A DNA stretch of 38,059 nt from Desulfobaccales bacterium (lineage in GTDB: Bacteria > Desulfobacterota > Desulfobaccia > Desulfobaccales > 0-14-0-80-60-11): NCBI GenBank assembly GCA_037481655.1, contig JBBFLF010000022.1, positions 1 to 38,059 of the forward strand, read 5' to 3'. Shown here piece after piece: positions 4,471 through 21,012 of this stretch (position 1 is the stretch's first letter; every line of letters starts with the position of its first letter). The notes under the pieces were generated by a model. The model worked only from the letters and a program-made list of their open reading frames with translations. It made no database searches and was not told where the DNA came from. A program made the translations under genes and the position numbers.

Positions 4471-6213
4471 GTGATGGAGGTGTGGCAGAGCAATCGGCAG
4501 GCGGCCGGGGGTAAGCTGGGCGGGCTAACGTTGCCGGAGCAGCCCCCGGAACTGCAGAAAGTGCGGCTGATGCCGGGGCCGCCGCCCCTGTTGGCGGTGC
4601 CCGGGCCCCGGGGCAATTACCTGGCTCTCCATGGCCGCCGGCCCTGGGAGGAAGCCCACGCCTTGGCCGCCCAAGTCCCCCTCCTCCAGGAAGAACCCCT
4701 GGTGGCCTTGGGTTTGGGGCTGGGCTACCATCTCCTGGCCCTCCTCCCCCGGCTGGCAGAGGGCCAGACCCTGGTGGTGGTGGAGCCCGAGCCCGAGGTG
4801 GTGTCTGCCGCCCTGAGTGCCCTGGACCTGAGCCCGGTCTTGAACCGGCCGCAGACCTATTGGGTGGTGGAGCCGGAGCCGGGGGAGGCGGCCAGGCAGA
4901 TAAACCAGGTTCTGGGGGGGCGCCGCCGACCGCCCCGGGTCTTTGGCCATCCCGCTTCCCTTCGGGCCCGGCCCTCCTATTATGAAGAGCTCCTCCCACT
5001 CCTGACGCGTCCCGCAACGGCCCCCCGGCGCCCTCCCGGCCTGCGCCGGGAGAGTCTCCGGGTCCTGGTGGTCAACCCCGACTACTTCCTCATCCCCGAG
5101 GTGCTCCGGGCCTTTCGCCACTTGGGCCATGAGGTGGGGCTCATCTCCTTTGACAAGCGCCGGGAGCCGGGGGAGGAGGTGTTGCGCCGCATCCTGGCGC
5201 AACTGACGGAATTCCGCCCGGACCTGCTCTTCACCATCAATCATCTGGGGGTGGACCGGGAGGGAGTACTCCTGCAGTGCCTGGAGCGTCTACGGGTGCC
5301 CTTGGTCTCCTGGTTTGTGGACAGCCCCGCCCTCATTTTGGACCTCTACGCCGGTGCCGGCCGGGATCTCACCTTCATCTTTTCCTGGGACCCTACCTAC
5401 ATTCCCCGGGTCCGGGCCCTAGGGTTTGTGCAGGTGCACCCGTTGCCCCTGGCCACCGACCCGGAGATCTTCCGTCCCAGCGGCAATGGAAACGCCGGCC
5501 GTTATGCCCGCGGCGTCTCCTTTGTGGGCAACTCCCTCACCCGGCCGGTGGCCGAAAAACTGGCCCGCCTGCCCCAGGATCAGGAGTTCCGGGAGATTTT
5601 CCAGCAGCTCACCCGGGCCTACCTCCGGCGCCCCTACCGGGACCTGGCCACGGTCCTGGAGGAGGAGGGCCTCGCGGGCCATGTCCGGGTGGCCACCCTG
5701 AGGGACACGGAGCGGGTGGATCTGGAGGCGGCCATGATCTGGGCCGCCACCCGGGAGTACCGGCTGGAATGTGTCCGCCGGCTCGGAGGCTTTCACCCCG
5801 TCATCTACGGCGATTCCGGCTGGCGGGAGCTGGTGGGGCCGGCCTTCCGGCTGGAGCCGGAGGTACGCTATTACGACGAACTCCCCCGGGTGTATGCCGC
5901 CAGCCAGATCAACTTCAACGCCACCAGCCTGCAGATGAAGGCGGCGGTGAACCAGCGGGTCTTCGATGTGCCTGCGGCCGGGGGCTTCCTGCTCACCGAC
6001 TTCCGGGAGCAGTTGGCCGAGGTGCTGGAGCCGGGCCGGGAGGTCATCTGCTACCGCCGGCCGGAGGAGATCCCGGAGCTGGTGCGCTTTTATCTCCGGC
6101 ATCCGGCTGAGCGCCGGCGCCTGGCCCAGGCCGCCCGGAAGCGGGTCCTGAGCGAACACACCTACCGCCACCGGGTCCAGACCATGCTGGCGCACCTTCG
6201 GAGGGCATTGTGA
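4471..6213 (+). CDS. CgeB-like glycosyltransferase with N-terminal Rossmann-like domain
   Basis: A 580-residue protein. Residues 1-170 hold a domain with LVALGLGLGYHLLALL (about 78-92) followed by a conserved VVVEPEPE, resembling the nucleotide-binding core of DUF115/MptE-like proteins. Residues about 195-580 resemble the DUF3880 plus CgeB glycosyltransferase pair: VLVVNPDYF, SWFVDSPALILDLY, FSWDPTYIPRVRALG, PLATDPEIF, VSFVGNS, and a C-terminal NQRVFDVPAAGGFLLTDFREQL sugar-nucleotide region ending in the typical SEHTYRHRV. It most likely transfers a nucleotide sugar to a protein or surface glycan; donor and acceptor cannot be read. Start is GTG 4471 or ATG 4474. It overlaps the next gene by 4 nt. 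Confidence 0.8.
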   Translation: MMEVWQSNRQAAGGKLGGLTLPEQPPELQKVRLMPGPPPLLAVPGPRGNYLALHGRRPWEEAHALAAQVPLLQEEPLVALGLGLGYHLLALLPRLAEGQTLVVVEPEPEVVSAALSALDLSPVLNRPQTYWVVEPEPGEAARQINQVLGGRRRPPRVFGHPASLRARPSYYEELLPLLTRPATAPRRPPGLRRESLRVLVVNPDYFLIPEVLRAFRHLGHEVGLISFDKRREPGEEVLRRILAQLTEFRPDLLFTINHLGVDREGVLLQCLERLRVPLVSWFVDSPALILDLYAGAGRDLTFIFSWDPTYIPRVRALGFVQVHPLPLATDPEIFRPSGNGNAGRYARGVSFVGNSLTRPVAEKLARLPQDQEFREIFQQLTRAYLRRPYRDLATVLEEEGLAGHVRVATLRDTERVDLEAAMIWAATREYRLECVRRLGGFHPVIYGDSGWRELVGPAFRLEPEVRYYDELPRVYAASQINFNATSLQMKAAVNQRVFDVPAAGGFLLTDFREQLAEVLEPGREVICYRRPEEIPELVRFYLRHPAERRRLAQAARKRVLSEHTYRHRVQTMLAHLRRAL

Positions 6214-7649
6214 GGCCCCGGCGGGTGCTGATGCTGCAGCTGGCCCGGCTGGGGGACCTGGTGCAGACCTGGCCGCTCTTGCGCCGGCTTCAGGCGGCCT
6301 GGCCCGGAGCCGGCCTGGAAATGGTATGCGACGCCGGGCTTATCCCTTTATGCGCCCTGGGGCCGCCGGTGGAGCAGGTGCACGGCCTGGAAACGGGCTT
6401 TCTGGCGGCCTTGGCTCAGCGGGAGCCGGTGGCTGCAGGCCGGCGGCTGGGGGCCCGGCTTCAGGAGCTACGCGCTCGCGGGTGTGAGGTGGCGGTGAAT
6501 GTGAATCTTTCCCGGCTTTCCCTGCTCCTGAGCCACGGACTGGGACTGCCGGTCCTGGGCTACCAGCCCCTGGCGGGGGGCCGGGAATTCGGCCGATCGC
6601 CCTGGCTGGCTTATGTCTTTGCCCTGGCCCACGCCCGGCGTCTCAACCGGCTGCACGTGAGCGATGTCTTTCGGCATCTGGCCCCGGCCGCCCCAGAGGA
6701 ACCCATCCCCGCCGCCTTTCCCGGACCTGCGGACGGGGAGCCCTGGGTGGGGTTGGTGCCGGGGACCCGGCACCCTAAACGCACCTGGCCGCCGGTGGCC
6801 TTTGCCCGCCTCATTTCCCTTGTGGCCGCGGAAATGCCGGTCCGGTTCGTGCTCTTGGGGGCCCGGGCGGAACAGTCCCTGGGCGAGGCCATCCGGCGGG
6901 AACTTCCGGAGAGTCTGCGGGCGCGGCTGCAGGATCTGATGGGGAAAACCGGGCTGCGGGAGCTCTCCGGGGAGCTGACCGGTCTCAACCTCCTCATCAG
7001 CGGCGACACCGGCACCCTGCACCTGGCCGCGGCCCTGGGGGTACCCTGCCTGGGGCTTTTTTTCGGCCCCGCCCAGGCCTGGGAGACCGGACCGTATGGG
7101 GCGGGGCACCTGGTGCTGCAGGCGGAGCCGCCCTGCCATCCCTGCCGGGAGGGGGAGCCGTGTCCGGCCCCGGAATGCCTCCGGCTCCTCACCCCGGAGC
7201 TGGTGGCCCGGGTGGCCCTGTCCCGGCTGCGGGGGGAACCCTTAGGGGAAGTATCAATGCCCCCCCAGGTCCGCCTCTATGAAACCGGCCGGGACGGTCT
7301 CGGGGCCAGCCTGCGCGGCGGCCATGGACACCCGCCGACTCTGCCGGACCTGATCGCCGGGGTCTACCGCCGACTGGCGGTCCGGCTGCTGGGGCTGGAA
7401 AACGGCGGGCCGGAGAGGGAGGGGCTGCCCGTGGCCTTGCGCTCCTCCCTTGCCCGGCTGGCGGAGGCGGTCCGGGGGAAAGACCCGGCCTTGTCTCCGG
7501 CGGAGAGGGCGCTCCTTAGGCCCCTCCAGGCCTTCCGGATGGAAGCGGGGCGCCAGGGAGCCCTTCAGGGCCGGCCTGAGCTCTGGGAAGAGCTGGCCCA
7601 GGCTCTGATAAGTGATTTTGCTGATCAGCTGGAGATCCTGGCAGGGTAA
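6210..7649 (+). CDS. Glycosyltransferase family 9 (heptosyltransferase-like)
   Basis: A 479-residue protein whose first ~340 residues fit the ADP-heptose:LPS heptosyltransferase family. The N-terminal Rossmann start is VLMLQLARLGDLVQTWPLLRRL; the middle has WVGLVPGTRHPKRTWPPVAFARL; the donor-binding motif is LLISGDTGTLHLAAALGVPCLGLFFGPA, followed by a CHPC segment common in these enzymes. The last ~130 residues are an extra domain not in ordinary heptosyltransferases. The start is GTG 6210, whose GTGA overlaps the stop of the upstream gene, implying translational coupling. Placement between CgeB-like enzymes suggests glycan assembly on a protein or surface polymer rather than LPS core; that is inference. 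Confidence 0.8.
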   Translation: MRPRRVLMLQLARLGDLVQTWPLLRRLQAAWPGAGLEMVCDAGLIPLCALGPPVEQVHGLETGFLAALAQREPVAAGRRLGARLQELRARGCEVAVNVNLSRLSLLLSHGLGLPVLGYQPLAGGREFGRSPWLAYVFALAHARRLNRLHVSDVFRHLAPAAPEEPIPAAFPGPADGEPWVGLVPGTRHPKRTWPPVAFARLISLVAAEMPVRFVLLGARAEQSLGEAIRRELPESLRARLQDLMGKTGLRELSGELTGLNLLISGDTGTLHLAAALGVPCLGLFFGPAQAWETGPYGAGHLVLQAEPPCHPCREGEPCPAPECLRLLTPELVARVALSRLRGEPLGEVSMPPQVRLYETGRDGLGASLRGGHGHPPTLPDLIAGVYRRLAVRLLGLENGGPEREGLPVALRSSLARLAEAVRGKDPALSPAERALLRPLQAFRMEAGRQGALQGRPELWEELAQALISDFADQLEILAG

Positions 7650-9618: not shown

Positions 9619-11313
9619 ATGGATATCCTGGTCATCAACCTGATGCGCCTGGGGGATCTGGTGCAGAGCACTCCGGTGCTGCGGGGATTGCGGGCCCGCT
9701 ATCCGGGGGCCAGCATCACCCTCCTGGCCATGGACCTCTTTGAGGCGGCCGCCCGGCTGCTCCCCGGGGTGGACCGGCTGCTCCTCTTTCCCGGCACCGC
9801 CCTGGCCCCGGTCCTGGACCGGCAGGGGTGGCCGGCGGCCGTGCGGCAGCTCGCCCACTGGGTCAAGGGGCATCTTGGATCCCGCCCGGATCTGGCGGTC
9901 AATCTCACCCCCACCCTGATGGCCGGCCTTCTCGCCCGGCTTTCCGGCGCGCCCCAGGTCCGGGGCCTGTGGCTGAGTGACGGCCGGGAGCTGGCCACCT
10001 CGCCCTCCTGGGCCAGTTACTCCCTGGTGGCCTCCAAAGCCCGGCAGGCCAATCCCTTCAATGTGGCGGACCTCTTTGTGCTCAGCGCCGGCCTGAGGCC
10101 CGATGGGGCGGGACTGGCAATGCAGGTGCCCACGGGACCTGCCTCTGCAAAAACCGGCGGCGCCTTTCGGGTGGGGCTCTGTCCCGGGGCCAGCCGGCCG
10201 GAGCGGCAATGGCCCCCGGAAAATTTTGCCCGCGCCGCGCGGCTGCTCCTGGGCAAAGTGCCCTGCCGCTTTGTCATCTTCGGCAGTGCCGGCGAGCGCC
10301 CTTTGGGGGAGGCCCTGCTTAGGCTGCTGCCTCCCGGCACCGGCACCCTGCTGGCCGGGGAGACGGACCTGCCGGGACTGGCAGAGCAGCTGGCCGGGCT
10401 GGACCTCCTCCTCACCAACGACACCGGGCCCATGCACCTGGCCGCGGCGGTGGGCACTCGGGTGGTGGCCCTGTTTCTGGCCAGCGCCCGGGTGCAGGAC
10501 ACCGGTCCGGCCGGCCGGGGCCACGCGCTGCTGGAGCCGCATCTGCCCTGCCACCCCTGTCTTACTCCCTGCGCCCGGTTTAGCTGCCATGCGGTCATTA
10601 GCCCGGAGGCGGTGGCCCAGGTGGCCGGCGAGATCCTGACCGGCCTAGGCACTGTGCCCTGGGACGCCAGCGGCCCCTTTGCAGGAGTGCGGTTATACCA
10701 CACCCACCTGGATCCGGAAGGCTATCAGGTGGCCCTCCCTGCCCTGCGCCGCCCCCTGTCCCGGCTGGATTTCTGGCTGTGGGCACACCGCCTGGCCTGG
10801 GAGGAATTCCTTATCGGACCTCCCTCTCCCCGGCTGGTGGAGTGGCTGGCGGCTCTGCTACAGGAGCGTTATTTGCCGCCGGCACCCGGCCTGAACCTCC
10901 CGGAAAGCATGGCCGCCCTGGAGGAGCTCGCATCCCTGGCCCGGCGAGGGGCAGAGACGGCCGCCCGGCTGATCCTGCGGACCTCGGATGCCCCCCGGCT
11001 GACTCTCGCCGGGGCCCTCTCCACTTTCGCCGCCGTCGATCAGGGCTTGCGGCGGCTGGCGGCGGCCTTTCCGGAACTGGCGGCGCCGGTGGCCTTTTTC
11101 TTTCAGGACCAGCGGCTGGCGGTGGCGCAGGAGGTGCCGGCCCTGGCCCGGGAACTGAGCCGGGCTTACCGCCGGCTGGGACACCTGGCGGAACTGTGCC
11201 GGGAGGCCGCCACCCAGTTGGCACCCGCCGGTTCCAGCCGCAGCCTTGGGTTGGCACAAGGCATGCAGGCTTTATCGGCAACCGCCGTCCGTCAGTCTCC
11301 GGAAGCGAGGTGA
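9619..11313 (+). CDS. Second glycosyltransferase family 9 protein
   Basis: 564 residues. The N-terminal ~345 residues carry GT9 signatures: ILVINLMRLGDLVQSTPVLRGLRARYPGA, VGLCPGASRPERQWPPENFARA, FVIFGSAGERPLGEALL, and the donor site LLLTNDTGPMHLAAAVGTRVVALFL with a CHPC segment. The remaining ~220 residues form a mostly helical C-terminal extension, longer than that of the first GT9 gene. The upstream gap of 187 nt contains no convincing gene and no clear promoter. The start ATG 9619 has only a weak RBS but is fixed by the conserved hydrophobic first strand. Likely works in the same glycan pathway as its neighbours. Confidence 0.8.
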   Translation: MDILVINLMRLGDLVQSTPVLRGLRARYPGASITLLAMDLFEAAARLLPGVDRLLLFPGTALAPVLDRQGWPAAVRQLAHWVKGHLGSRPDLAVNLTPTLMAGLLARLSGAPQVRGLWLSDGRELATSPSWASYSLVASKARQANPFNVADLFVLSAGLRPDGAGLAMQVPTGPASAKTGGAFRVGLCPGASRPERQWPPENFARAARLLLGKVPCRFVIFGSAGERPLGEALLRLLPPGTGTLLAGETDLPGLAEQLAGLDLLLTNDTGPMHLAAAVGTRVVALFLASARVQDTGPAGRGHALLEPHLPCHPCLTPCARFSCHAVISPEAVAQVAGEILTGLGTVPWDASGPFAGVRLYHTHLDPEGYQVALPALRRPLSRLDFWLWAHRLAWEEFLIGPPSPRLVEWLAALLQERYLPPAPGLNLPESMAALEELASLARRGAETAARLILRTSDAPRLTLAGALSTFAAVDQGLRRLAAAFPELAAPVAFFFQDQRLAVAQEVPALARELSRAYRRLGHLAELCREAATQLAPAGSSRSLGLAQGMQALSATAVRQSPEAR

Positions 11314-12390: not shown

Positions 12391-13596
12391 TCAGGACAGG
12401 AAATGCTTAAGCTCCTCCACCCGGTCGGTGGCTTCCCAGGGGAGGGGCAGGTCGGTGCGCCCCACCTGGCCGTAAGCCGCCAGGGCCCGGTAAAAGATCC
12501 CGTGGTGCCGGGCCGGCAGGTGCCGCAGCTGGAAGGTTCTGAGCAGGGGGACGGGCCGGAAATCAAAGGTCCGGGCCACGATGGCTGCCAGCCGGTCATC
12601 GGAGAGCTTCCCGGTACCGAAGGTCTCCACCTGAATGCTGGCTGGCCGAGCTAAGCCGATGGAATAGCACAACACCACCTCGCACTCCTCCGCCAGCCCG
12701 GCGGCCACCACATTCTTGGCAGCATAGCGGGCGGCATAGGCGCCGATGCGGTCGATGCGCAAGGGGTCCTTGCCGCTTAGGGCATTGCCGCTGTGGCGGG
12801 CATACTCCCCGTAGGTGTCGGTGGCGTTCTTTCTGCCGGTGAGGCCGGAGTGCACCGCCGGCCCCCCCACCATCAGGTTTTCCAGGGGATTGATGAAGAT
12901 CTGGGTATCGTTGTCGGGCTGAAGAGGCTGGCCGGCCAAGGCAGGCTCAATCACCGCCCCCCGCATGTCCTCCTCCAGCCGACGGCGGGTAATGGTCTCC
13001 ACCTCCTCCAGGGCCCCGCTCACCACCAGGGTGAGGCTTTGCAGGCGCACGGGCCGGCGCTGCCGGTATTCCACCCCCACCTGCACCTTGGCGTCCGGGG
13101 AGAGGTAGGTGAGCCCCCGCTCCCGGCGGGCGATCATGATCTCCCGGGCCAGCCGGTGCGCCAGAAAGATGGGGAGGGGCAGAAAAGCCTCGGTCTGGCG
13201 GCAGGCAAAGCCGAAGACCGTGGCCTGCTGCCTCGCCGCCAAGCGGTCGAACTCCTCCGGCTTCAGCCGCATTTCATCGAAGATCAGGTCCGCGTCCGGC
13301 GGATATTCCTGCAGGCTGGTGAGGATGCTGCAGGTTTTGGCGTCAAAATCCGGCCGGGCATACCCCACCTGGCTGATGACCTTGCGGGCCAGATTGGGGA
13401 TGTCGGCCCGGACCTCCGAAGCAAAGCGGGCGGCGATGAAGAGGATGGAGTTGGACACGGCGCACTCCGCCCGCACCCGGGCGAAGGGATCCTGCTCCAG
13501 GAAGTGATCTACGATGGCATCGCTGATCTGATCGCAGAGCTTGTCGGGATGGCCTTCCGTCACCGACTCGGAGATAAAGATGAAATCCTGGTTCAT
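12391..13596 (-). CDS. Divergent S-adenosylmethionine synthetase (MetK family)
   Basis: 401 residues, family-like length. Conserved: SESVTEGHPDKLCDQISDAI at the N-terminus, PDAK with Lys170, GLTGRK (Arg255, Lys256), LSGKDPLRIDRIGAYAARYAAKNVVAAGLA and a late SIG. Several active-site positions differ from E. coli MetK. The GGEITT loop reads AARFAS, so its Glu becomes Arg58. GDQGLMFGYA reads RQQATVFGFA, so the Asp equivalent to Asp118 is Gln123. GGPMGDCGLTGRK reads GGPAVHSGLTGRK, so the Asp equivalent to Asp238 is His249. The fold is secure, but normal methionine binding is doubtful. It could be a specialised or altered-substrate paralogue; a standard metK is expected elsewhere in the genome. 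It lies 90 nt downstream of arsC in the same direction. Confidence 0.85.
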   Translation of the reverse strand: MNQDFIFISESVTEGHPDKLCDQISDAIVDHFLEQDPFARVRAECAVSNSILFIAARFASEVRADIPNLARKVISQVGYARPDFDAKTCSILTSLQEYPPDADLIFDEMRLKPEEFDRLAARQQATVFGFACRQTEAFLPLPIFLAHRLAREIMIARRERGLTYLSPDAKVQVGVEYRQRRPVRLQSLTLVVSGALEEVETITRRRLEEDMRGAVIEPALAGQPLQPDNDTQIFINPLENLMVGGPAVHSGLTGRKNATDTYGEYARHSGNALSGKDPLRIDRIGAYAARYAAKNVVAAGLAEECEVVLCYSIGLARPASIQVETFGTGKLSDDRLAAIVARTFDFRPVPLLRTFQLRHLPARHHGIFYRALAAYGQVGRTDLPLPWEATDRVEELKHFLS

Positions 13597-13686: not shown

Positions 13687-14130
13687 TTAAGGAAGCTCCA
13701 GGCCCACCTCCTCTTTCAGCCATTGCCGCACCCGGGCCTCGATCTGGTCCCGCACCCGCCGGAAAACAGCCAGTTTGTCCTCCGGACTGCCCGTGGCCGC
13801 GACCGGGTCCTCAAAGGGCCAGAAGAGCCGCTGCACCACCCCGGGAAAGGCCTTGGGGCAATTTCGCTCCGCCCGGTCGCAGACGATAATCAGGTAGCGG
13901 AATGCCATCCTCCCCAGGTACGTCTCCACCCCTTTGGCATGCTGCCCCACCAGGTCAAAGCCCTTCTCTGCCATCACCTGCCGGGTGAGGGGATGGATCT
14001 CCGTGGGGTCGTAGCCGGCGCTGTGGACCTCAAAGCGGTGTCCGGCATAGTGCTTGAGGAAGGCCTCCGCCATCTGGCTGCGGGCGCTGTTGCCGGTGCA
14101 GAGAATAAGGATATTTTCCTTTTCTTCCAT
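13687..14130 (-). CDS. arsC: Thioredoxin-coupled arsenate reductase / LMW phosphatase-fold protein
   Basis: 147 residues of the low-molecular-weight tyrosine phosphatase fold. The P-loop ILCTGNSARS holds Cys11 and Arg17. The redox pair Cys84 and Cys91 sits in VCDRAERNCP, matching the three-cysteine relay of the Staphylococcus-type ArsC that reduces arsenate to arsenite. A WPFEDP segment supplies the acid Asp. No arsR, arsB or acr3 is nearby. Instead it lies 30 nt downstream of the P-type ATPase gene and is probably co-transcribed with it, so its present role may be tied to that locus. Confidence 0.88.
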   Translation of the reverse strand: MEEKENILILCTGNSARSQMAEAFLKHYAGHRFEVHSAGYDPTEIHPLTRQVMAEKGFDLVGQHAKGVETYLGRMAFRYLIIVCDRAERNCPKAFPGVVQRLFWPFEDPVAATGSPEDKLAVFRRVRDQIEARVRQWLKEEVGLELP

Positions 14131-14160
14131 AACAGACTGCGGTCCTCCCGGAAACAGTGC

Positions 14161-17100
14161 TCAGGCCGACAGCGGGGCGGGCCGCAGGGCCTCCCGGGGC
14201 GGGCGGGGCTTGGTCAGCTCATTCACCACCAGTGGCACCAGCGCGCCGGCCAGCGCCACTGCCACATCCAGGGCGCCTAAGGGGGTAAGGCCCAAAACGG
14301 CCCTGAGCCCCGGCACCAGCAGGGTCAGCCCCTGGAGCACCAGGGAGCCGGCCACGGCCCCGTAAAGATAGGGATTGGCCGGCCGCTCCGCCCCGGAAAA
14401 GAGGCGGGTGCTCTCGGAGCGACAGCTCAAGGCATGCAGCAGCTGGCCGCTGGTGAGGCTATGAAAGGCCAGGGTGCTGGCCTGCGGCCCCAGGCCATAG
14501 CGGGCCGCCCCATAGGCATAAGCCCCCAGCGCCCCGGCGCTCAAGGCGGCGGATTCAAAGGCCATGCGCCGGAAATCCGTATCACTGAAGATGGGCTCTT
14601 CCGGGTTTCTGGGCGGCCGGGAGAGAATATCCGGCTCCGGCGGCTCCAGGGCCAGGGTAAGGCCCGGGAGGATGTCGGACACCAGATTGATCCATAAGAA
14701 CTGCATGGCGGTGAGGGGCGAGCCCAGACCCGCCGCCAGGGCGGTCACCGTCAGCATGATCTCGCTTAGGTTGGTGGCCAGGAAGAAGTGCACCGACTTG
14801 CGGATGTTGAGGTAGATGGTGCGACCGTCCCGCACCGCGATGAGCAGGGTGCCCAGGTCGTCCTTCTCCAGCACCACATCGGCCACTTCCCGGGCGATGT
14901 CGGTGCCGGTATGGCCCATGGCGATGCCCACATCCGCAGCCTTCAGCGCCGGGCCGTCATTGATGCCGTCGCCGGTCATGGCCACCACCTTCCCGGCCTT
15001 CTGCAGGGCCTGCACAATGCGCAGTTTATGGGCCGGACTCACCCGGGCGAAGATGTGGGCCCGGGGGATGAGGGCCTCCAGGGTCTCCGGCGGCACCTGA
15101 CTCAACTGCACCGCCTCCAGGATCTCCAGGGGCCGGCCACGGCTGAGGTTCAGTTCCTGGCCGATGGCATAGGCGGTGGGGCTCTGGTCGCCGGTGATCA
15201 TCACCGTGGCGATGCCGGCCCGGTGGAAGGCCCGGATGGCCTCGGCCACTCCCGGGCGAATGGGGTCGGTCATGGCGATGAGCCCCAGCCAGATGAGGCC
15301 GTCTTCCCCCGCCTCCGCCTCCCGGCCCCGGGCGTAGGCCAGCCCGAGAGTGCGGAAGGCCCGGCCCGCCAGGGCCTCGTTATCCGCTTCGATGCGGGCC
15401 CGGTCCTCTTCGGTGAGGGGGCGCCTCTTTCCTTGCCGCAGCTGATGGCGGCAGAGGGCCAGCACCTCCAGGGGGCTGCCCTTCACCGCCCGGAAGCGGC
15501 CCCGGCCGTTGATGCCATGCAGAGTGCTCATGTACGGCCGGGTTTCGGAGCGGTGGTGCAGGCTGAGCAGCGGATAACGCTGCCGCAGGGCGCTGACATC
15601 CAGGCCGGCGTCCAAAGCCAGACGCACCAGGGCGGCCTCGGTGGGCGTGCCCCGGAGGGTCAACTCCCCCTGCTCCCGATAGATCTCCGTTTCGTTGCAC
15701 AGCACCGCCACCTGCAGGAGCAGGCGCAGGTCATGGCAGCCGGTGAGGGAGACGGGTTCCCCCCCGTGGCACAGCTGCCCTTCCACCACCTCATAGGTCT
15801 TGTTCCCGGCCAGCACCTGGGTGACGGTCATGCGGTTGTAGGTGATGGTGCCGGTCTTGTCCAGGCACAGGGTCTGCACCGCGCCCAGAGTCTCCACGGC
15901 CTGGAGGTGGCGGATGAGCACGTGGTGCCGGCGCATGTCCCGCACCCCCAGGGCCAGGGTGGTGGTAGCCATCATGGGCAGGCCTTCGGGCACGGCGGCG
16001 GCGGCCAGGCAGATGGCGGTGCGCAGCATCTCCAGGAAACCCAGGCCCCACAAGGCCCCGGCGGCGAAGGCGACCCCCGACACCCCCAGGCAGAGCCACA
16101 CCAGCCGGTCCCCCAGCTCCCCCAATTGGCGCTGCAGAGGTGTCTCCGGACTGATGGTCTCCCCCACCAGGAGCTGGATGCGGCCGATCTCCGTGAAGCT
16201 GCCGGTGTTCACCACCAGGGCCAGGCCCTCCCCGCCGGTGACCAGGGTGCCCTTGTAAACCATGTTCACCCGGTCGGCCAGGGGAAGGTGAGGATCAGCC
16301 AGAGCGGGGATGGCTTTGGCTACCGGCAGGCTCTCACCGGTCAGGGCGGATTCGTCCACACTCAGATGGTGGGCCGCCACCAGGCGGGCGTCAGCGGGCA
16401 CGGACACCCCGGGGCGCAGCACCACCAGGTCCCCCACGGCCACGGACTCGGAGGGGATCTCCCGGGTCTCGCCCTCCCGGATCACCAAGGCGCCGGGCCG
16501 CACCAGGGTCTGGAGGGACTGGATGGTCTTTTCCGCTTCGCTCTCGGTCTTGTAGCCGATATAGGCGTTGGCCACCACCACTCCCATGATGAGGAGGGCA
16601 TCCGTCAGACCGCCAGTAAACAGCGAGATGCCGGCGGCCACCCCCAACAGGGCCACCGGCAGGGACTTAAACTGCTCCAGGAAAATGTCCAGGCCGGAGC
16701 GCGCTTCGGCCTCAGGGAGGACATTTTGGCCATATTTCTCGAGGCGCCGCCGGGCCTGAGCGTCGGTGAGGCCCTGCACCGGGGAGGTCCCCAGCCGGGC
16801 CGCCACCTCCTCGGGGGTCAACAGGTGCCATTGCTCCTGGGGCTGCTCCTCGCCGTGCCCCCAGAGATATCCCAGTCCCGGCAGCCAGGAGGTCCCGGCC
16901 GGGGACTCCGGGGAGACCTGCCCCGGGGGCGCAGCCGTCGCCTGGTTTTGGCTGTGGGTGAGGTAGTCGGAGACAATCTCCTCCACCCGGGCAGCCATGG
17001 TCTTGGGGGTGTGATGGGAGTTGTAGCAGACCAGCAGGTTGCCGGTGAGGGGGTTGGCCGAAACCTCGGTGACCTCCGCCAGCCGGGAGAGCCGGAACTC

Positions 17101-17220
17101 GAGGACGCGCTTCAGCACCTCGTCCCGGTACAGTCCCTTCACCCGATAGCGGGTGCGGCCGGGGACCGCATCATGGACGGTCTCCACCATTGGCGGCGCC
17201 TCGGGTCCGCTGGCCATCAT
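14161..17220 (-). CDS. P2-type cation ATPase with N-terminal HMA-like domain
   Basis: 1019 residues. Residues about 12-90 form a cysteine-free heavy-metal-associated-like domain (DAVPGRTRYRVKGL, then SANPLTGNLLVCYN). A cation-ATPase N-terminal segment follows at about 130-190 (LLTPEEVAARLGTS). Catalytic motifs: TGES 294-297, PEGLP 411-415, DKTGT with phosphorylated Asp454, KGSP, and MTGDGINDGPALKAADVGIAMG. TM5 reads ATNLSEIM and TM6 WINLVSDILP, matching the SERCA Asn/Glu and Asn/Asp ligands; with the PEGLP Glu this predicts Ca2+ or Mn2+ transport (inference). There is no CPC/SPC in TM4, so it is not a P1B metal pump. Spacing of 15 nt to the upstream LEA-like gene and 30 nt to arsC implies one operon. 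Confidence 0.9.
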   Translation of the reverse strand: MMASGPEAPPMVETVHDAVPGRTRYRVKGLYRDEVLKRVLEFRLSRLAEVTEVSANPLTGNLLVCYNSHHTPKTMAARVEEIVSDYLTHSQNQATAAPPGQVSPESPAGTSWLPGLGYLWGHGEEQPQEQWHLLTPEEVAARLGTSPVQGLTDAQARRRLEKYGQNVLPEAEARSGLDIFLEQFKSLPVALLGVAAGISLFTGGLTDALLIMGVVVANAYIGYKTESEAEKTIQSLQTLVRPGALVIREGETREIPSESVAVGDLVVLRPGVSVPADARLVAAHHLSVDESALTGESLPVAKAIPALADPHLPLADRVNMVYKGTLVTGGEGLALVVNTGSFTEIGRIQLLVGETISPETPLQRQLGELGDRLVWLCLGVSGVAFAAGALWGLGFLEMLRTAICLAAAAVPEGLPMMATTTLALGVRDMRRHHVLIRHLQAVETLGAVQTLCLDKTGTITYNRMTVTQVLAGNKTYEVVEGQLCHGGEPVSLTGCHDLRLLLQVAVLCNETEIYREQGELTLRGTPTEAALVRLALDAGLDVSALRQRYPLLSLHHRSETRPYMSTLHGINGRGRFRAVKGSPLEVLALCRHQLRQGKRRPLTEEDRARIEADNEALAGRAFRTLGLAYARGREAEAGEDGLIWLGLIAMTDPIRPGVAEAIRAFHRAGIATVMITGDQSPTAYAIGQELNLSRGRPLEILEAVQLSQVPPETLEALIPRAHIFARVSPAHKLRIVQALQKAGKVVAMTGDGINDGPALKAADVGIAMGHTGTDIAREVADVVLEKDDLGTLLIAVRDGRTIYLNIRKSVHFFLATNLSEIMLTVTALAAGLGSPLTAMQFLWINLVSDILPGLTLALEPPEPDILSRPPRNPEEPIFSDTDFRRMAFESAALSAGALGAYAYGAARYGLGPQASTLAFHSLTSGQLLHALSCRSESTRLFSGAERPANPYLYGAVAGSLVLQGLTLLVPGLRAVLGLTPLGALDVAVALAGALVPLVVNELTKPRPPREALRPAPLSA

Positions 17221-17235
17221 ACGCAGGAACTGTTT

Positions 17236-17925
17236 CTATTCTGTGCTGCCTTCGGTTTTGGCCCGGGAGGGGGATTTGCGCTCCGCCGGGGCCGCCTGGG
17301 GCTTGCCTTCCTCCCCCGCCTCCTCCCGGCCTTTGGGCAGCAGAGTGCCGGCCACTTCCTTGACGCCTTCCACCGCGCCCACCAGGACGTCGGTGACCGC
17401 CTTGACGGCGCTGACCCCCAAGGTGCCGGCGGCCTCCAGGGCCCCGCCCACCGCGGCTTTGGCAGCCGCGCCGACGCTCCAGCCCACCTGGCCGGCGGTC
17501 TCCATCACCCCCATGACGGCGCTTTTGGCCACCGTGGCCACATCGCCACCCACCTCGGCGGCACCTTTCACCGCGCCCTTCACCAGGTTGCCGGCAGCCT
17601 GGGTGAGGTCGCCCCCCACGTCGCTGACGCCCAGAAGCAGGCCCTTGGCCACGTTCTTGGTGCCGGTAATCAGGCCGGTGCCCACCTCCTCGCCGGCCTT
17701 GATGGCCCCTTTGAAGACTTCCTTGCTCACCGTGATGGTCTCCGAGGCCACCTCGCCGGTGCCCTTGAGGACATCGGTGATGGTCTGGCGGGCCACGGAA
17801 ACGATCTGGGACTCAATCTCCCCCAGACCTTTGAGGCCGCCCACGATGCTGTCCTTCACCGCGGCGCCGGTCTGGCCCAAAGCCCCGCTGATGCCGCCCG
17901 TTTCCTTGCTTTCTTCCGGAGACAT
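17236..17925 (-). CDS. LEA-like amphipathic repeat protein
   Basis: 229 residues from ATG 17925, chosen because AGGAGGAGG lies immediately upstream; a longer open frame to 18090 runs through unlikely low-complexity sequence. The body (about 20-195) is a run of short amphipathic units rich in Gly, Ala, Val and Lys: VKDSIVGGLKGLG, GAIKAGEEVGTG, GNLVKGAVKGAAEVGGD, AKAAVGGALEAAGTLG. The pattern resembles late-embryogenesis-abundant or membrane-surface-coating proteins. The C-terminal 30 residues are charged and Pro-rich. No signal peptide and no clear transmembrane helix. It sits 15 nt before the ATPase gene, so a role at the membrane hosting the pump is suggested; this is inference. Confidence 0.72.
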   Translation of the reverse strand: MSPEESKETGGISGALGQTGAAVKDSIVGGLKGLGEIESQIVSVARQTITDVLKGTGEVASETITVSKEVFKGAIKAGEEVGTGLITGTKNVAKGLLLGVSDVGGDLTQAAGNLVKGAVKGAAEVGGDVATVAKSAVMGVMETAGQVGWSVGAAAKAAVGGALEAAGTLGVSAVKAVTDVLVGAVEGVKEVAGTLLPKGREEAGEEGKPQAAPAERKSPSRAKTEGSTE

Positions 17926-18002
17926 GGCCTCCTCCTGTCTCACTTCCATGGTTGCAGGGTTGCTCGGAAACCCGCACCTGCGGCGGTCTCTCCGCCTCCA
18001 CT

Positions 18003-18308
18003 TCAGGTCAAGTGCGGCCCCAGCCAGCTGGCCAGGGCCAGGGAATCCACTTCCGGAAAGAGCTCCTGGAAGGCGCTCTTCAGAGCCCACAAGGAGCTCC
18101 AGGAGCGGAGCCGCTCCCGGTCGTATTCCACCCGGACCGTCCCCGCCGCGGCATCGGCGCGCACCGCCCGGATACCGTCCACCGCCGAAAACCGCTCCGT
18201 CAGGCGCCGGGCCAGCTCCTCATTGCCCTGGAGCCGACTCACCCCCAGAACCAGCGTGCCCGGCCGGGCTGCCACCAACGTAAAACCTTGCATGCTCTCC
18301 CCAGTCAT
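18003..18308 (-). CDS. Small HMA-like domain protein
   Basis: 101 residues (ATG 18308; ATG 18293 with GGGGAG in front is an equal alternative). It shares the fold pattern of the other HMA-like domains in this cluster: a first strand, a helix with EELARRLTERFSAVDGIRAV, then GTVRVEYD. It ends with a helix and FPEVDSLALASWLG. No CxxC metal-binding motif is present, and the PGRxR motif of its relatives is reduced to RPGTLVL. Probably the first gene of the minus-strand operon leading to the LEA-like protein, ATPase and ArsC, although 77 nt separate it from the LEA-like start. Confidence 0.7.
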   Translation of the reverse strand: MTGESMQGFTLVAARPGTLVLGVSRLQGNEELARRLTERFSAVDGIRAVRADAAAGTVRVEYDRERLRSWSSLWALKSAFQELFPEVDSLALASWLGPHLT

Positions 18309-18478
18309 AAACCCCCAATCTTTGGTGTTTATTTATGTGAAGCCGCCTCAAAAGGAAACCGACCGGCAAAAAACTCACCCAATACTCATCTGCGGCTAAC
18401 ATGCAGGCCGGAAAACTGATCATCAGCCAATTGCCAAAGATGTCCGGGCTAAATAAAAAATTAACCCAGCCTTAATTC

Positions 18479-18507
18479 TTGTTTAATGGCAGCCTGTTAG
18501 GTTTATA
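18479..18507 (+). promoter_or_regulatory. Putative sigma70-type promoter
   Basis: TTGTTT (18479-18484), 17-bp spacer, TTTATA (18502-18507) in the AT-rich gap before the plus-strand HMA-like gene. The gap 18309-18538 is a divergent promoter region also serving the minus-strand operon. No further gene is seen in it. Confidence 0.45.
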
Positions 18508-18538
18508 GATGACAGGTTGTGGAAAAGGAGATGCCTGC

Positions 18539-18892
18539 ATGCCCGTGATGACCGATTATCTGCACGCCTTGGAGGGCCGGCTGCGCATCAAGGTGCCGGA
18601 GGTCAAAGGTTCCCCGGCGGCAGCCGCCCGCATCGAGGGGGAGCTCAAAGCCGCCTTTGGGGTGGAGGAGGTCCATGCCAATCCCATTACCGGCAATGTG
18701 CTCATCACCTACCAGCCGGAGATCATCTCCCAGGATGAGATCATCCGCCTCCTCCGGGATGATCTGGGCTGCTTCCGGGAGGGCCTGAACACCGTCATCT
18801 CCCGCACCGGGCCCCGGGACAGCATGGCCGCCACCTTGGGCCGGGCCGTCTTTGAATCCGCCCTCCAGACCCTGGTGATGGCCATTATTTAA
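18539..18892 (+). CDS. HMA-like domain protein, cysteine-free
   Basis: 117 residues. ATG 18539 is chosen because AAGGAG (18525-18530) lies 8 nt upstream; an in-frame ATG at 18509 would place that RBS inside the gene. The HMA-like domain runs from DYLHALEGRLRIKVPEVKGS through a helix to HANPITGNVLITYQPE. The motif ALEGRLRIKV corresponds to AVPGRTRYRV of the ATPase N-domain and ALPGRLRLKV of the minus-strand homologue. The C-terminal part ends in a hydrophobic stretch (ALQTLVMAII). No CxxC, so direct soft-metal binding is unlikely. It is transcribed divergently from the ATPase operon. Confidence 0.78.
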   Translation: MPVMTDYLHALEGRLRIKVPEVKGSPAAAARIEGELKAAFGVEEVHANPITGNVLITYQPEIISQDEIIRLLRDDLGCFREGLNTVISRTGPRDSMAATLGRAVFESALQTLVMAII

Positions 18893-18899
18893 CCGGGCC

Positions 18900-18940
18900 T
18901 GAGGGCAAGCCCTCACCAGCCACCCCTTTCCATGAAGGGG
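18900..18940. terminator. Possible bidirectional terminator hairpins
   Basis: Two short stems follow one another between convergent genes: TGAGGGC (18900-18906) with GCCCTCA (18909-18915), and CCCCTT (18923-18928) with AAGGGG (18935-18940). A T-rich tract follows about 30 nt further on. The convergent context supports a stop signal, but the first loop is only 2 nt and the T-run is not adjacent. Confidence 0.35.
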
Positions 18941-18982
18941 ATGTCGCCCTTCAGGAAAATCCCTTTTTCCCTTCCCTCAGCT

Positions 18983-19588
18983 TTACTCTTCCCCTAAAGG
19001 AATCTCCCCTGACTCCCGGGGTGGCCCGCCCGCCTCCGGCGCGGCGGCGGGCCCTTCCCACAGGCCGCGGTTCAGCATGACAAAGATGGAAAACCCGAAC
19101 CAGAAATAGTCGTACCAGGAGGGCTTAAGTTTCGAGTCCGTGAGTAATGCCCTTACCCCCAGCCCGAAGAGGCTCAAAGGGAGGAGCATCTTCAGGTCGA
19201 TAAGCCCCCCGGTGGCGGCGCTCACCTGGGAGTTGAGCTGGCTGAAGAAACCCACCAGGCCGGCGGCCAGGGAGGAGGTGGGGGCAGTCGCGGTGTTTTC
19301 CTCCGGGGTGAGAAGGCGCGGCAACTCCTCGAGATTGAGGCCGGGAAAGAGCTCGGTCACCGCCTCGGACAGGGCCAGGAGGGCCGCGGGCGAGGTGATG
19401 GCCTGGGGATCATAGTGCACCACCACGCTGCCGGTGAGGGGGACCGCCGTCACCTCCAGCAGGGCAGGCACGACCCGGAGACGCTCCTCCACCCGGCGGG
19501 CAAAGGCGGCATCGCCCTTGACCCGAGGCACCTTGAGGCGCAGCCGCCCGGGGAGAGCGTGCACCACCGTCACCTCTTGAGCCGGCAT
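18983..19588 (-). CDS. HMA-like domain protein with C-terminal membrane segment
   Basis: 201 residues, ATG 19588 with GGAGG 9 nt upstream. Residues 1-80 are a cysteine-free HMA-like domain: VTVVHALPGRLRLKVPRVKGD, a helix, then AVPLTGSVVVHYDPQAI. A linker of about 40 residues is followed by two hydrophobic stretches (DLKMLLPLSLFGLGVRALL and YDYFWFGFSIFVML) forming a membrane anchor, then an acidic, Pro-rich tail. The combination of a soluble HMA-like head and a membrane anchor resembles accessory proteins of ferrosome-type clusters (FezC-like in architecture only). Convergent with the plus-strand HMA gene, and upstream of nothing else on its strand until the operon at 18308. Confidence 0.78.
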   Translation of the reverse strand: MPAQEVTVVHALPGRLRLKVPRVKGDAAFARRVEERLRVVPALLEVTAVPLTGSVVVHYDPQAITSPAALLALSEAVTELFPGLNLEELPRLLTPEENTATAPTSSLAAGLVGFFSQLNSQVSAATGGLIDLKMLLPLSLFGLGVRALLTDSKLKPSWYDYFWFGFSIFVMLNRGLWEGPAAAPEAGGPPRESGEIPLGEE

Positions 19589-19678
19589 CGCCAGCCACCT
19601 CCCTCATCTGCCCCACGCCGCCCTGCGGCCCCCCTTCCCCCCTGAAGAGCCACGCCTTACGGCCCGGGAAAGCAGGCC

Positions 19679-19918
19679 TTATTTGGGGGAACCGTAGTGC
19701 TCCGTCTTGGCCTCGGCGTAGAGGTCGCTCAACTGCTCTCCGGTCTCCGCCACCAGCCCCACGGCGGTGTCATAGAGGGTGAGGCCGCCTTTGATGACCC
19801 CTTTCGCCAGGGGCCGCAAGATAGCTCCGGCAGCCGGCAAAAGCACCGGCACCACCAGGGCCACCCCCACCCCCACCAAGATGTTGGGCACCGTCAGTTT
19901 GAAGAGATCTTTCCACAT
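19679..19918 (-). CDS. DUF5132-like small membrane protein
   Basis: 79 residues from ATG 19918 (AGGA about 8 nt upstream); the longer open frame to 20035 is not supported. The N-terminal helix WKDLFKLTVPNILVGVGVALVVPVLLPAAGAI is a membrane helix, followed by the amphipathic LRPLAKGVIKGGLTLYDTA and a charged end ETGEQLSDLYAEAKTEHYG. It is a close paralogue of the protein at 20268-20561: both share VPxILVxxGVxLxxPxxLPA, RPLAKxxIKG and ETGEQLSDL or EAGEQLSDL. Function is unknown; single-helix peptides with this tail may interact with the HMA-like or ATPase proteins next to them. Confidence 0.75.
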   Translation of the reverse strand: MWKDLFKLTVPNILVGVGVALVVPVLLPAAGAILRPLAKGVIKGGLTLYDTAVGLVAETGEQLSDLYAEAKTEHYGSPK

Positions 19919-20267
19919 GATCTGGTCCTGCCCCCGGCGCGGTCGGAATAACTGGCCATCAGCCTCAAAATCCCGGAGGCCCAGGCCGCTGAGATCCGGG
20001 AGGGGGTCACCCCCACCGCTTTGGCGCAGCCTCACCGCGGGTGCCGGAGGACGATTAGGAATTTTTTTAGAAAATAAATCCAGTTAGGCCCGGTTGCCAA
20101 GGGAAGGCGCCCCTGAGGGTGCAAGCCCCCTGCGCTTGGACTTCCCTCAGCGCTCCCGCCGGCCGGGAATTCTCCCTCCCGTCAATCCCCTCTCTGAAGA
20201 CATACCCGGCCGTCATGTGAGGTCCGTGAGCCTCAGGTGTGAAAATTATGAGCCGTCCTGGGACCTC
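19919..20267 (-). promoter_or_regulatory. Gene-free gap with putative promoter for the DUF5132-like gene
   Basis: No convincing gene in this 349-nt gap. On the minus strand TTGGCA (complement of 20095-20100), a 17-bp spacer and TTATTT (complement of 20072-20077) form a plausible promoter for the downstream peptide gene, inside the only AT-rich stretch. The rest is GC-rich filler. Confidence 0.4.
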
Positions 20268-20561
20268 TCACCCGGCCGGGGGAGCGGTCTCCCCGCCGCC
20301 CGTTGCAGTCCCGGGCCCGCCAGCGCCGGCGGCCCGCTCCGCCTTGACTTCGGCCACCAGGTCGCTCAGCTGTTCCCCGGCTTCGGCGGCGTATTCCTTG
20401 ACCGTATCGGCCAAGGCCAGATAGCCCTTGATGAGGGTTTTGGCCAGGGGGCGGGAGACCGCGGCCACCGCCGGCAGCACAATGGGCGCGGCCAGCACCA
20501 CTCCCAGCACCACCAGGATGCTGGGAACCGTGCCTTTGAGGCCATCGTCAAACAGTTTCAC
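20268..20561 (-). CDS. DUF5132-like small membrane protein, paralogue
   Basis: 97 residues beginning with GTG 20561, supported by AAGGAGG 6 nt upstream. Layout matches its paralogue: membrane helix GTVPSILVVLGVVLAAPIVLPAVAAV, amphipathic SRPLAKTLIKGYLALADTVKEY, acidic EAGEQLSDLVAEVKAE, plus a Gly/Pro/Thr-rich tail of about 22 residues absent from the other copy. It is transcribed away from the padR-like gene, with both promoters inside the 85-bp AT-rich gap, so control by that regulator is likely (inference). Confidence 0.78.
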   Translation of the reverse strand: MKLFDDGLKGTVPSILVVLGVVLAAPIVLPAVAAVSRPLAKTLIKGYLALADTVKEYAAEAGEQLSDLVAEVKAERAAGAGGPGTATGGGETAPPAG

Positions 20562-20593
20562 GGTCCGCCTCCTTGATGAAAAGGTAAATAAAA

Positions 20594-20622
20594 ATCTAAC
20601 GAAAATTTAACCCCTTCTTCAA
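20594..20622 (-). promoter_or_regulatory. Putative promoter of the DUF5132-like gene
   Basis: Read on the minus strand: TTGAAG (complement of 20617-20622), a 17-bp spacer, TTAGAT (complement of 20594-20599). It lies 33 nt before the GTG start. Good spacing; both hexamers are near consensus. Confidence 0.5.
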
Positions 20623-20635
20623 TAATCCTTAACCG

Positions 20636-20657
20636 ACATATGTTGTATGATAGACAT
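20636..20657. promoter_or_regulatory. Putative PadR operator
   Basis: ACATATGT (20636-20643) is a perfect 8-bp palindrome, and ATGT (20640-20643) is followed 10 nt later by ACAT (20654-20657). PadR-type boxes are ATGT/ACAT inverted repeats, usually 8 nt apart, so this is similar but not canonical. It overlaps the first codons of the PadR gene, which would allow autorepression. Confidence 0.35.
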
Positions 20658-21012
20658 GGACCTCAAACGGCAGATTCTGCAGGCTTGCTGGCAGGGGCTG
20701 GTGCGGCTCTTCATCCTCCAGGAGGCCCGCAAAGGCCCGATTTATGGGGTGCGCCTGAAAAAGCTGCTGGCCCGCCAGGGCTACGCCATCAGCTCCGGGA
20801 GCCTTTATCCCATGCTGCACCAATTGGAGGAGGGCGGCGCCTTGCGCTCCCGCATCCGCATTTTCCGGGGCCGGGCCCGCAAATACTATGACCTCACCCC
20901 CCTGGGACTGAAGCTGCTCATGGACATCAAAGCCGCCCTGCCCCCGTGTCTGAGCGGCCTGCCCGAAGAAACCGTCCCAGCCCCTGATGCCGGCCTCGTG
21001 AACCTGGATTAA
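20647..21012 (+). CDS. PadR-family transcriptional regulator
   Basis: 121 residues with the PadR winged-helix pattern: LVRLFILQEARKGPIYGVRLKKLLARQGYAISSGSLYPMLHQLEEGGALRSR, then the wing RGRARKYYDLTPLGLKLL. The C-terminal helix expected for dimerisation is short and Pro-rich. No Shine-Dalgarno sequence precedes ATG 20647 or the next in-frame ATG 20656, so translation may be leaderless or the start unusual. Probable ligand-responsive repressor of its own gene and the divergent DUF5132-like gene, and perhaps the whole HMA/ATPase cluster; the ligand is not readable. Confidence 0.88.
   Translation: MIDMDLKRQILQACWQGLVRLFILQEARKGPIYGVRLKKLLARQGYAISSGSLYPMLHQLEEGGALRSRIRIFRGRARKYYDLTPLGLKLLMDIKAALPPCLSGLPEETVPAPDAGLVNLD

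Follow-up and report, generated by a model that had tools for sequence, protein, structure and literature searches.

PacL scaffold proteins cluster and stabilise P1B ATPases in mycobacteria, and the authors who described these effluxosomes note that DUF6110 relatives of PacL adjoin P1B-6 pumps (PMC9374683, PMC13043812). In ferrosomes, the membrane protein FezA and the P-type ATPase FezB are both required for the formation of the organelle (PMC12574912). Here we describe a gene cassette found in a stretch of 38,059 nt from a Desulfobaccales bacterium, which we call the window. It combines a P2A-type cation ATPase with DUF5132 peptides, HMA_2 proteins, an amphipathic repeat protein and MetK2, a divergent paralog of S-adenosylmethionine (SAM) synthetase, which is the most specific partner of the cassette. 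We give a probability of about 50% to the reading in which the cassette encodes a membrane assembly centred on the pump, for Ca2+ or possibly Mn2+, with DUF5132 and the HMA_2 membrane protein as its scaffold and with MetK2 coupled to it.

Coordinates refer to the whole window. The cassette is on the minus strand and is read from position 20561 downward, with the 117-aa HMA_2 gene inserted on the plus strand. Its genes are the following:

20268..20561, minus: DUF5132 peptide b, 97 aa, at the head of the conserved gene order (Pfam PF17195, 1.5e-10)
19679..19918, minus: DUF5132 peptide a, 79 aa from the ATG at 19918, a start taken from the sequence in a reading frame open to 20035 (PF17195, 5.1e-11)
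18983..19588, minus: HMA_2 protein, 201 aa, with PGRLRLK and membrane helices (PF19991, 1.7e-20, full profile)
18539..18892, plus: HMA_2 monodomain protein, 117 aa, with EGRLRIK (117 or 127 aa, reading frame open from 18509; PF19991, 1e-9)
18003..18308, minus: HMA_2-like protein, 101 aa, without GR-x-R (PF19991, 5.8e-6, below the cut-off; kept in the gene order)
17236..17925, minus: amphipathic protein with 11-residue repeats (LEA/perilipin-like), 229 aa (ATG at 17925 behind AGGAGG; periodicity)
14161..17220, minus: P2A-type cation ATPase, 1019 aa (Pfam, NCBIfam, PDB match, site residues in homologues)
16969-17181, minus: N-terminal HMA_2-like domain of the P2A ATPase (PF19991, 7.5e-9)
12391..13596, minus: MetK2, divergent SAM synthetase paralog, 401 aa, 3' of the pump (S-AdoMet_synt domains, altered methionine site)

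An initial annotation of this region had listed most of these genes. They are present at about the places it gave, as judged by Pfam matches to HMA_2, DUF5132, PadR and P2 ATPases, and its two paralogous peptides are indeed DUF5132 proteins. The interval it delimited holds the cassette, but starts with an occasional ArsC-like gene and omits the far more constant MetK2. Its HMA-like domains were described as cysteine-free: None contains CxxC, but there is one Cys in the N-terminal domain of the ATPase (LLVCYN) and another in the 117-aa protein (DLGCF). The GR-x-R motif is found in the pump and in the 117-aa and 201-aa proteins, but not in the 101-aa protein, which has PGTLVLG.

The conservation of these genes, their order, their coupling and their residue patterns can be observed directly. 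Every HMA_2 gene (four) and every DUF5132 gene (two) that we have found in this 2.87-Mb genome falls within the cassette stretch, so their clustering is not due to chance. Other P-type ATPases of this genome, one P1B-like and three P2/P3-like according to their M4 motif, are located elsewhere. A common order, DUF5132, HMA_2, the repeat protein in some cases, P2A ATPase and MetK2, is found across Desulfobacterota. Within the taxonomic order of the window, nine further genomes have a nearly identical gene order and a tenth has a variant form. DUF5132 is present in 29 of 395 genomes of the phylum; in all loci read outside the order of the window its neighbour is a P2A ATPase carrying HMA_2 at the N-terminus, as far as the contig permits. 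The initial annotation had staked its idea of a system on neighbours which are conserved together across genomes, and this is what we find across phyla.

Many loci were picked by DUF5132, so genome-wide co-occurrence was tested with MetK2 as a second marker. In the 395 genomes of the phylum, MetK2 is found in 26 and DUF5132 in 29; both are found in 25, MetK2 alone in one and DUF5132 alone in four (p 2.5e-34). Among 292 cyanobacteria, the 13 genomes with MetK2 are all included in the 45 with DUF5132 (p 5e-12), although the DUF5132 gene of some of them sits in a separate P1B locus. These p-values are too strong, since genomes of common descent are not independent. The gene immediately 3' of the pump is MetK2 in 45 loci (46 counting L118, by inspection), and in 15 of the 45 both reading frames overlap by exactly four bases. 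The divergence of the pump and that of MetK2 are correlated (Mantel r 0.88, permutation maximum 0.47); part of this parallel divergence is due to shared descent alone. A scan with the MetK2 protein detected relatives in Nitrospirota, Cyanobacteria, one gammaproteobacterium and Methylocystis, each with the same pump adjoining, among the matches listed. Canonical MetK from Firmicutes fills that list, so groups beyond Desulfobacterota and Cyanobacteria are undersampled.

Some loci show other arrangements. In Calothrix sp. PCC 7103 (L116, 10001-13668) the cassette is rearranged: MetK2 comes first, followed by a fragment of DUF5132 and a shortened frame for the pump. A genome of the same genus as the window (L054, G009:C1, 7422-10457) has an apparently decaying second copy at the site of the window, beside TrpE/PabC, whose pump is a 163-aa remnant; its intact cassette is found elsewhere (L053). 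In a relative of the order (L063, 4880-12099), the P2A pump is separated from the DUF5132/HMA_2 genes by a further DUF5132, a further HMA_2 protein and an ATPase of the P1B type, of 709 aa.

The class of the pump, P2A, is supported by NCBIfam, Pfam, PDB matches and M4-M6 residues. Its closest PDB relative is the Listeria Ca2+-ATPase lmo0841, followed by human ATPase 2C1 (SPCA1) and SERCA. DKTGT and the catalytic motifs are invariant in 40/40 homologues. According to our own reading of the M4-M8 motifs, the equivalents of SERCA E309, N768, E771, N796 and D800 (E412, N817, E820, N845 and D849 in the pump) are also invariant in all 40, and that of T799 is Ser or Thr. The G-R-x-R motif of the N-terminal domain is equally invariant (40/40). 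Given these SERCA-type site residues, Ca2+ is the likeliest ion by homology and Mn2+ is possible. The P2-type pump proposed by the initial annotation thus stands, as a P2A pump with SERCA-like Ca2+ ligands and not a P1B-6 pump.

MetK2 is a full three-domain homologue of MetK, with PDB matches of about 300 bits. A branch supported at 100/100 separates MetK2 from the other sequences (45 against 33 rows). An ordinary MetK is also present in 37 of the 38 MetK2 genomes tested, including that of the window, where it is located elsewhere in the genome. We have aligned 33 MetK2 proteins using the E. coli MetK numbering. The residues E55, D238 and K269, which we take to be the methionine contacts from the E. 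coli and human structures, are altered in 33/33: D238 to H, K269 to R and E55 to R, Q or H. Canonical MetK proteins retain the three residues (7/7), MetK2 none of them (0/33). On the other hand, H14, D16, E42, R244, K245 and K265 are found in all 33 and D271 in 32; with the exception of E42, we assume from the same structures that these bind Mg and triphosphate. Q98 and D118 are variable. This residue pattern suggests that MetK2 probably still binds ATP and triphosphate, while the usual binding of methionine is lost; from homology, we infer that ATP is used. The NCBIfam metK model nevertheless scores these proteins above its cut-off, which gives them the automatic name 'metK'.

The altered site has suggested another explanation to us, which we consider improbable. 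The true cargo or signal might be a compound that MetK2 makes or binds, either a (poly)phosphate or an adenosyl sulfonium analogue, which would be read by the HMA_2 domains; the ATPase would then be regulated by this compound or move a cargo other than Ca2+. The replacement of the acidic contacts to the methionine amino group by Arg and His would fit an uncharged or anionic nucleophile, with the triphosphate site intact, and the basic GR-x-R of HMA_2 would suit an anionic partner. Nevertheless, the Ca2+ ligands of the pump are fully conserved and K165 of MetK is not strictly retained.

DUF5132 peptides have one N-terminal hydrophobic helix followed by an acidic amphipathic helix rich in Glu and Ala. 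An AlphaFold2 model of the 201-aa HMA_2 protein (pLDDT 83) has a beta-alpha domain of the HMA type and then membrane helices; its fold matches include HMA domains from CopZ, MerP and copper ATPases, with TMt 0.6-0.7 and a probability of about 1, although the E-values are no better than 0.01-0.1. The 117-aa protein has an orthologue in most loci. A DUF5132 segment and the membrane half of the HMA_2 protein form one fusion protein in six cassettes of cyanobacteria, which argues that both proteins act together. Most of the cyanobacterial DUF5132 genes that we have read are found instead with HMA_2 proteins and ATPases of the P1B type. DUF5132/HMA_2 is therefore a partner of pumps in general, with the P2A/MetK2 form as one of its branches. 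Neither DUF1490 nor DUF6110 was listed when the DUF5132 peptides of the window were searched with hmmscan up to E 1. The two Firmicutes DUF6110 loci which we have read sit beside a P1B-type pump.

The repeat protein of the window has a strong 11/3 periodicity (power 31.5; the 95th percentile of shuffled sequences is 8.0), so the amphipathic repeats noticed initially are real. One period, at 98 degrees (three turns per 11 residues), dominates in 26/26 homologues. Its AlphaFold2 model is all-helical with a pLDDT of only 52, and for this reason was left out of the fold search. Of the 35 pump loci outside cyanobacteria, 25 encode the protein; not being in all of them, it is considered accessory. 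Perilipins and alpha-synuclein carry 3-11 amphipathic helices (PMC8064757, PMC5889406). Those of Perilipin 4 and alpha-synuclein are similar to this protein in their 11-residue periodicity, their richness in Val, Ala, Gly, Thr and Lys, and their few bulky residues (PMC5889406, PMC8064757). There is no significant sequence homology with perilipin (Pfam E 0.2).

A long 3-11 helix of the perilipin type would fit a curved lipid surface, and the cassette might form an internal storage compartment. The DUF5132 and HMA_2 proteins would make lipid-bounded vesicles, which the pump would fill with Ca2+ (or Mn2+) under a coat of repeat protein, in the manner of acidocalcisomes or ferrosomes. We regard this putative compartment as rather doubtful. 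The architecture is parallel to that of ferrosomes, where FezA and FezB are required for the organelle (PMC12574912), and L063, in the same order, has a P1B-type ATPase inside the cluster. Nevertheless, the repeat protein is not in every locus, we have seen no FezC-type cytochrome genes among the conserved neighbours, and the pump is P2A, not P1B-6.

As 11-residue repeats are also known from group 3 LEA proteins, we have considered a plain cation-export operon with proteins for envelope or drying stress. The LEA-like repeat protein would protect membranes, DUF5132 would be a small stress peptide and MetK2 a spare SAM synthetase, as its NCBIfam name suggests. We find this unlikely. It is hard to see MetK2 as a spare enzyme: Its methionine contacts are altered throughout, a canonical MetK is nearly always present, and it is tied to this one pump. 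The coupling across phyla is also tighter than would be expected for a loose stress cluster.

The pump-centred assembly, which we prefer, may work as follows. The P2A ATPase would export Ca2+ (possibly Mn2+) from the cytoplasm. DUF5132 peptides and the HMA_2/membrane-hairpin protein would be a scaffold which brings the pumps together and stabilises them, much as PacL does with P1B ATPases. The HMA_2 domains without CxxC, which the pump and the scaffold share with the small soluble proteins, would be basic docking modules, not metal chaperones; their partners may be one another, an acidic lipid or a phosphorylated ligand. In loci that encode it, the 11-residue-repeat protein would form a long 3-11 amphipathic helix which rests on the membrane surrounding the pump. 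MetK2 would be a neofunctionalised ATP enzyme produced together with the pump, binding Mg-ATP/triphosphate and a nucleophile other than methionine, or none, and would provide or sense a metabolite needed by the assembly. We infer in this way the clustering of the pump, the coating of the membrane and the role of MetK2.

Several observations weigh against this assembly. Three P2A loci (L093, L104 and L105) have room for MetK2 but do not contain it, and K165 of MetK is retained in only 25 of the 33 MetK2 proteins. The apparent equivalent of the SERCA site-I residue E908 is Gln in 39/40 pumps, therefore stoichiometry and ion may differ from those of SERCA. The repeat protein is missing in 10 of the 35 non-cyanobacterial P2A loci and also in the cyanobacterial ones. 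A comparison of DUF5132 with DUF6110 using hhalign, with two usable DUF6110 sequences, was not significant (P 0.03-0.09, at most 20 columns). No profile homology was found in this comparison, made with DUF6110 alone, so the parallel with PacL is one of architecture.

Other genes are found around the cassette:

20647..21012, plus: PadR-family regulator, divergent from the head of the cassette (PF03551, 1.2e-13)
20635..20643, no strand assigned: candidate operator GACATATGT, a near-palindrome just before padR
13687..14130, minus: low-molecular-weight phosphatase or ArsC-like protein, 147 aa, an occasional neighbour (PF01451, 9.5e-18)

The padR gene is found at the same place in six loci, all within the order of the window. 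GAYATATRTC or a close form recurs near it in 6/6, and the version of the window, GACATATGT at 20635-20643, may be a PadR operator; we offer this as a lead only. An operon defined by PadR was dropped as an explanation, padR being found just near relatives of the window. An arsenate system was also dropped: The ArsC-like gene has a related copy in only 5 of 31 loci. By eye, two putative glycosyltransferases of the ADP-heptose type lie at 6210-7649 and 9619-11313. In six relatives (L055, L056, L057, L059, L060 and L062) the cassette has DUF3419 genes (BtaA-type, betaine lipid) nearby, most of them accompanied by a methyltransferase gene, as well as genes similar to phosphatidylserine decarboxylase. 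A zinc-ribbon protein of about 90 aa, weakly InsA-like, often overlaps a short HMA_2 gene beside the cassette (L090, L091, L093, L097, L098, L099, L101, L103, L105, L106, L108, L113 and L115); it is absent from the window.

Our literature search, which could not reach most subscription papers, found no account of the cassette, of DUF5132 or of a pump-MetK cluster. The ccyA/calcyanin literature serves as background alone, no tie to the cassette having been found. Calcyanin is marked by a glycine zipper, and the period that dominates the repeat protein is 11 residues per three turns. Known pump platforms use P1B metal pumps, while here a Ca2+-type pump is tied to scaffold-like membrane proteins in several phyla. 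In addition, a family of SAM synthetase look-alikes is annotated as metK despite a methionine site altered throughout, which points to a possible new chemistry for an enzyme. Should the pump load an internal lumen, a Ca or Mn organelle would be added to the few metal organelles known in bacteria. Besides sulphate-reducing bacteria, the hosts include cyanobacteria and Nitrospirota, two groups in which intracellular mineral formation draws active interest. We suggest, tentatively, a prokaryotic compartment or membrane domain for Ca2+ (or Mn2+), present in several phyla, in which the pump is joined by a new enzyme with the SAM synthetase fold, which would adenosylate a substrate other than methionine or handle triphosphate.

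The small protein of the PacL/CtpC platforms of Mycobacterium tuberculosis likewise has Glu/Ala repeats and a single membrane helix at its N-terminus, is encoded with a P-type ATPase and has a proposed scaffold role. However, the pump of these platforms is P1B, and they have no counterpart of the HMA_2 proteins, the repeat protein or MetK2. PacL is a DUF1490 protein with a C-terminal Asp/His metal-binding motif, which is absent from the DUF5132 peptides of the window, ending in EHYGSPK and ETAPPAG. The ferrosome pump has an Arg-rich N-terminal HMA-like domain without CxxC, with a motif of the R-x-x-R or GR-x-R type, and is accompanied by small membrane proteins, as in our cassette; DUF5132/HMA_2 do accompany P1B-type ATPases in cyanobacteria. 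Nevertheless, FezB is P1B-6 and our pump is P2A with Ca2+ ligands, with MetK2 as an extra partner. The cassette of the window contains neither a P1B-6 pump nor a FezC cytochrome. We have therefore rejected membership in the ferrosomes because of the pump class; a system related to them yet distinct, as first proposed, is partly supported by our results, through the conservation of its genes.

The catalytic motifs and the M4-M6 Ca2+-site residues are shared with the P2A pumps SERCA, SPCA and LMCA1. Our pump differs from them in the HMA_2 domain, about 120 residues long, added at its N-terminus, in an M8 Glu which is apparently Gln and in its genomic partners. MetK2 is similar to E. coli MetK in its three domains and Mg/triphosphate residues, but differs at E55, D238 and K269 and belongs to a separate clade. 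CoBaHMA domains (Gaschignard et al. 2024) reportedly have the HMA fold with conserved basic residues in place of CxxC; our HMA_2 domains, assigned through Pfam HMA_2, resemble this description. In summary, the cassette is possibly a variant of the membrane platforms built around P-type ATPases, similar in design to effluxosomes and ferrosomes but a member of neither, which may include a new enzyme.

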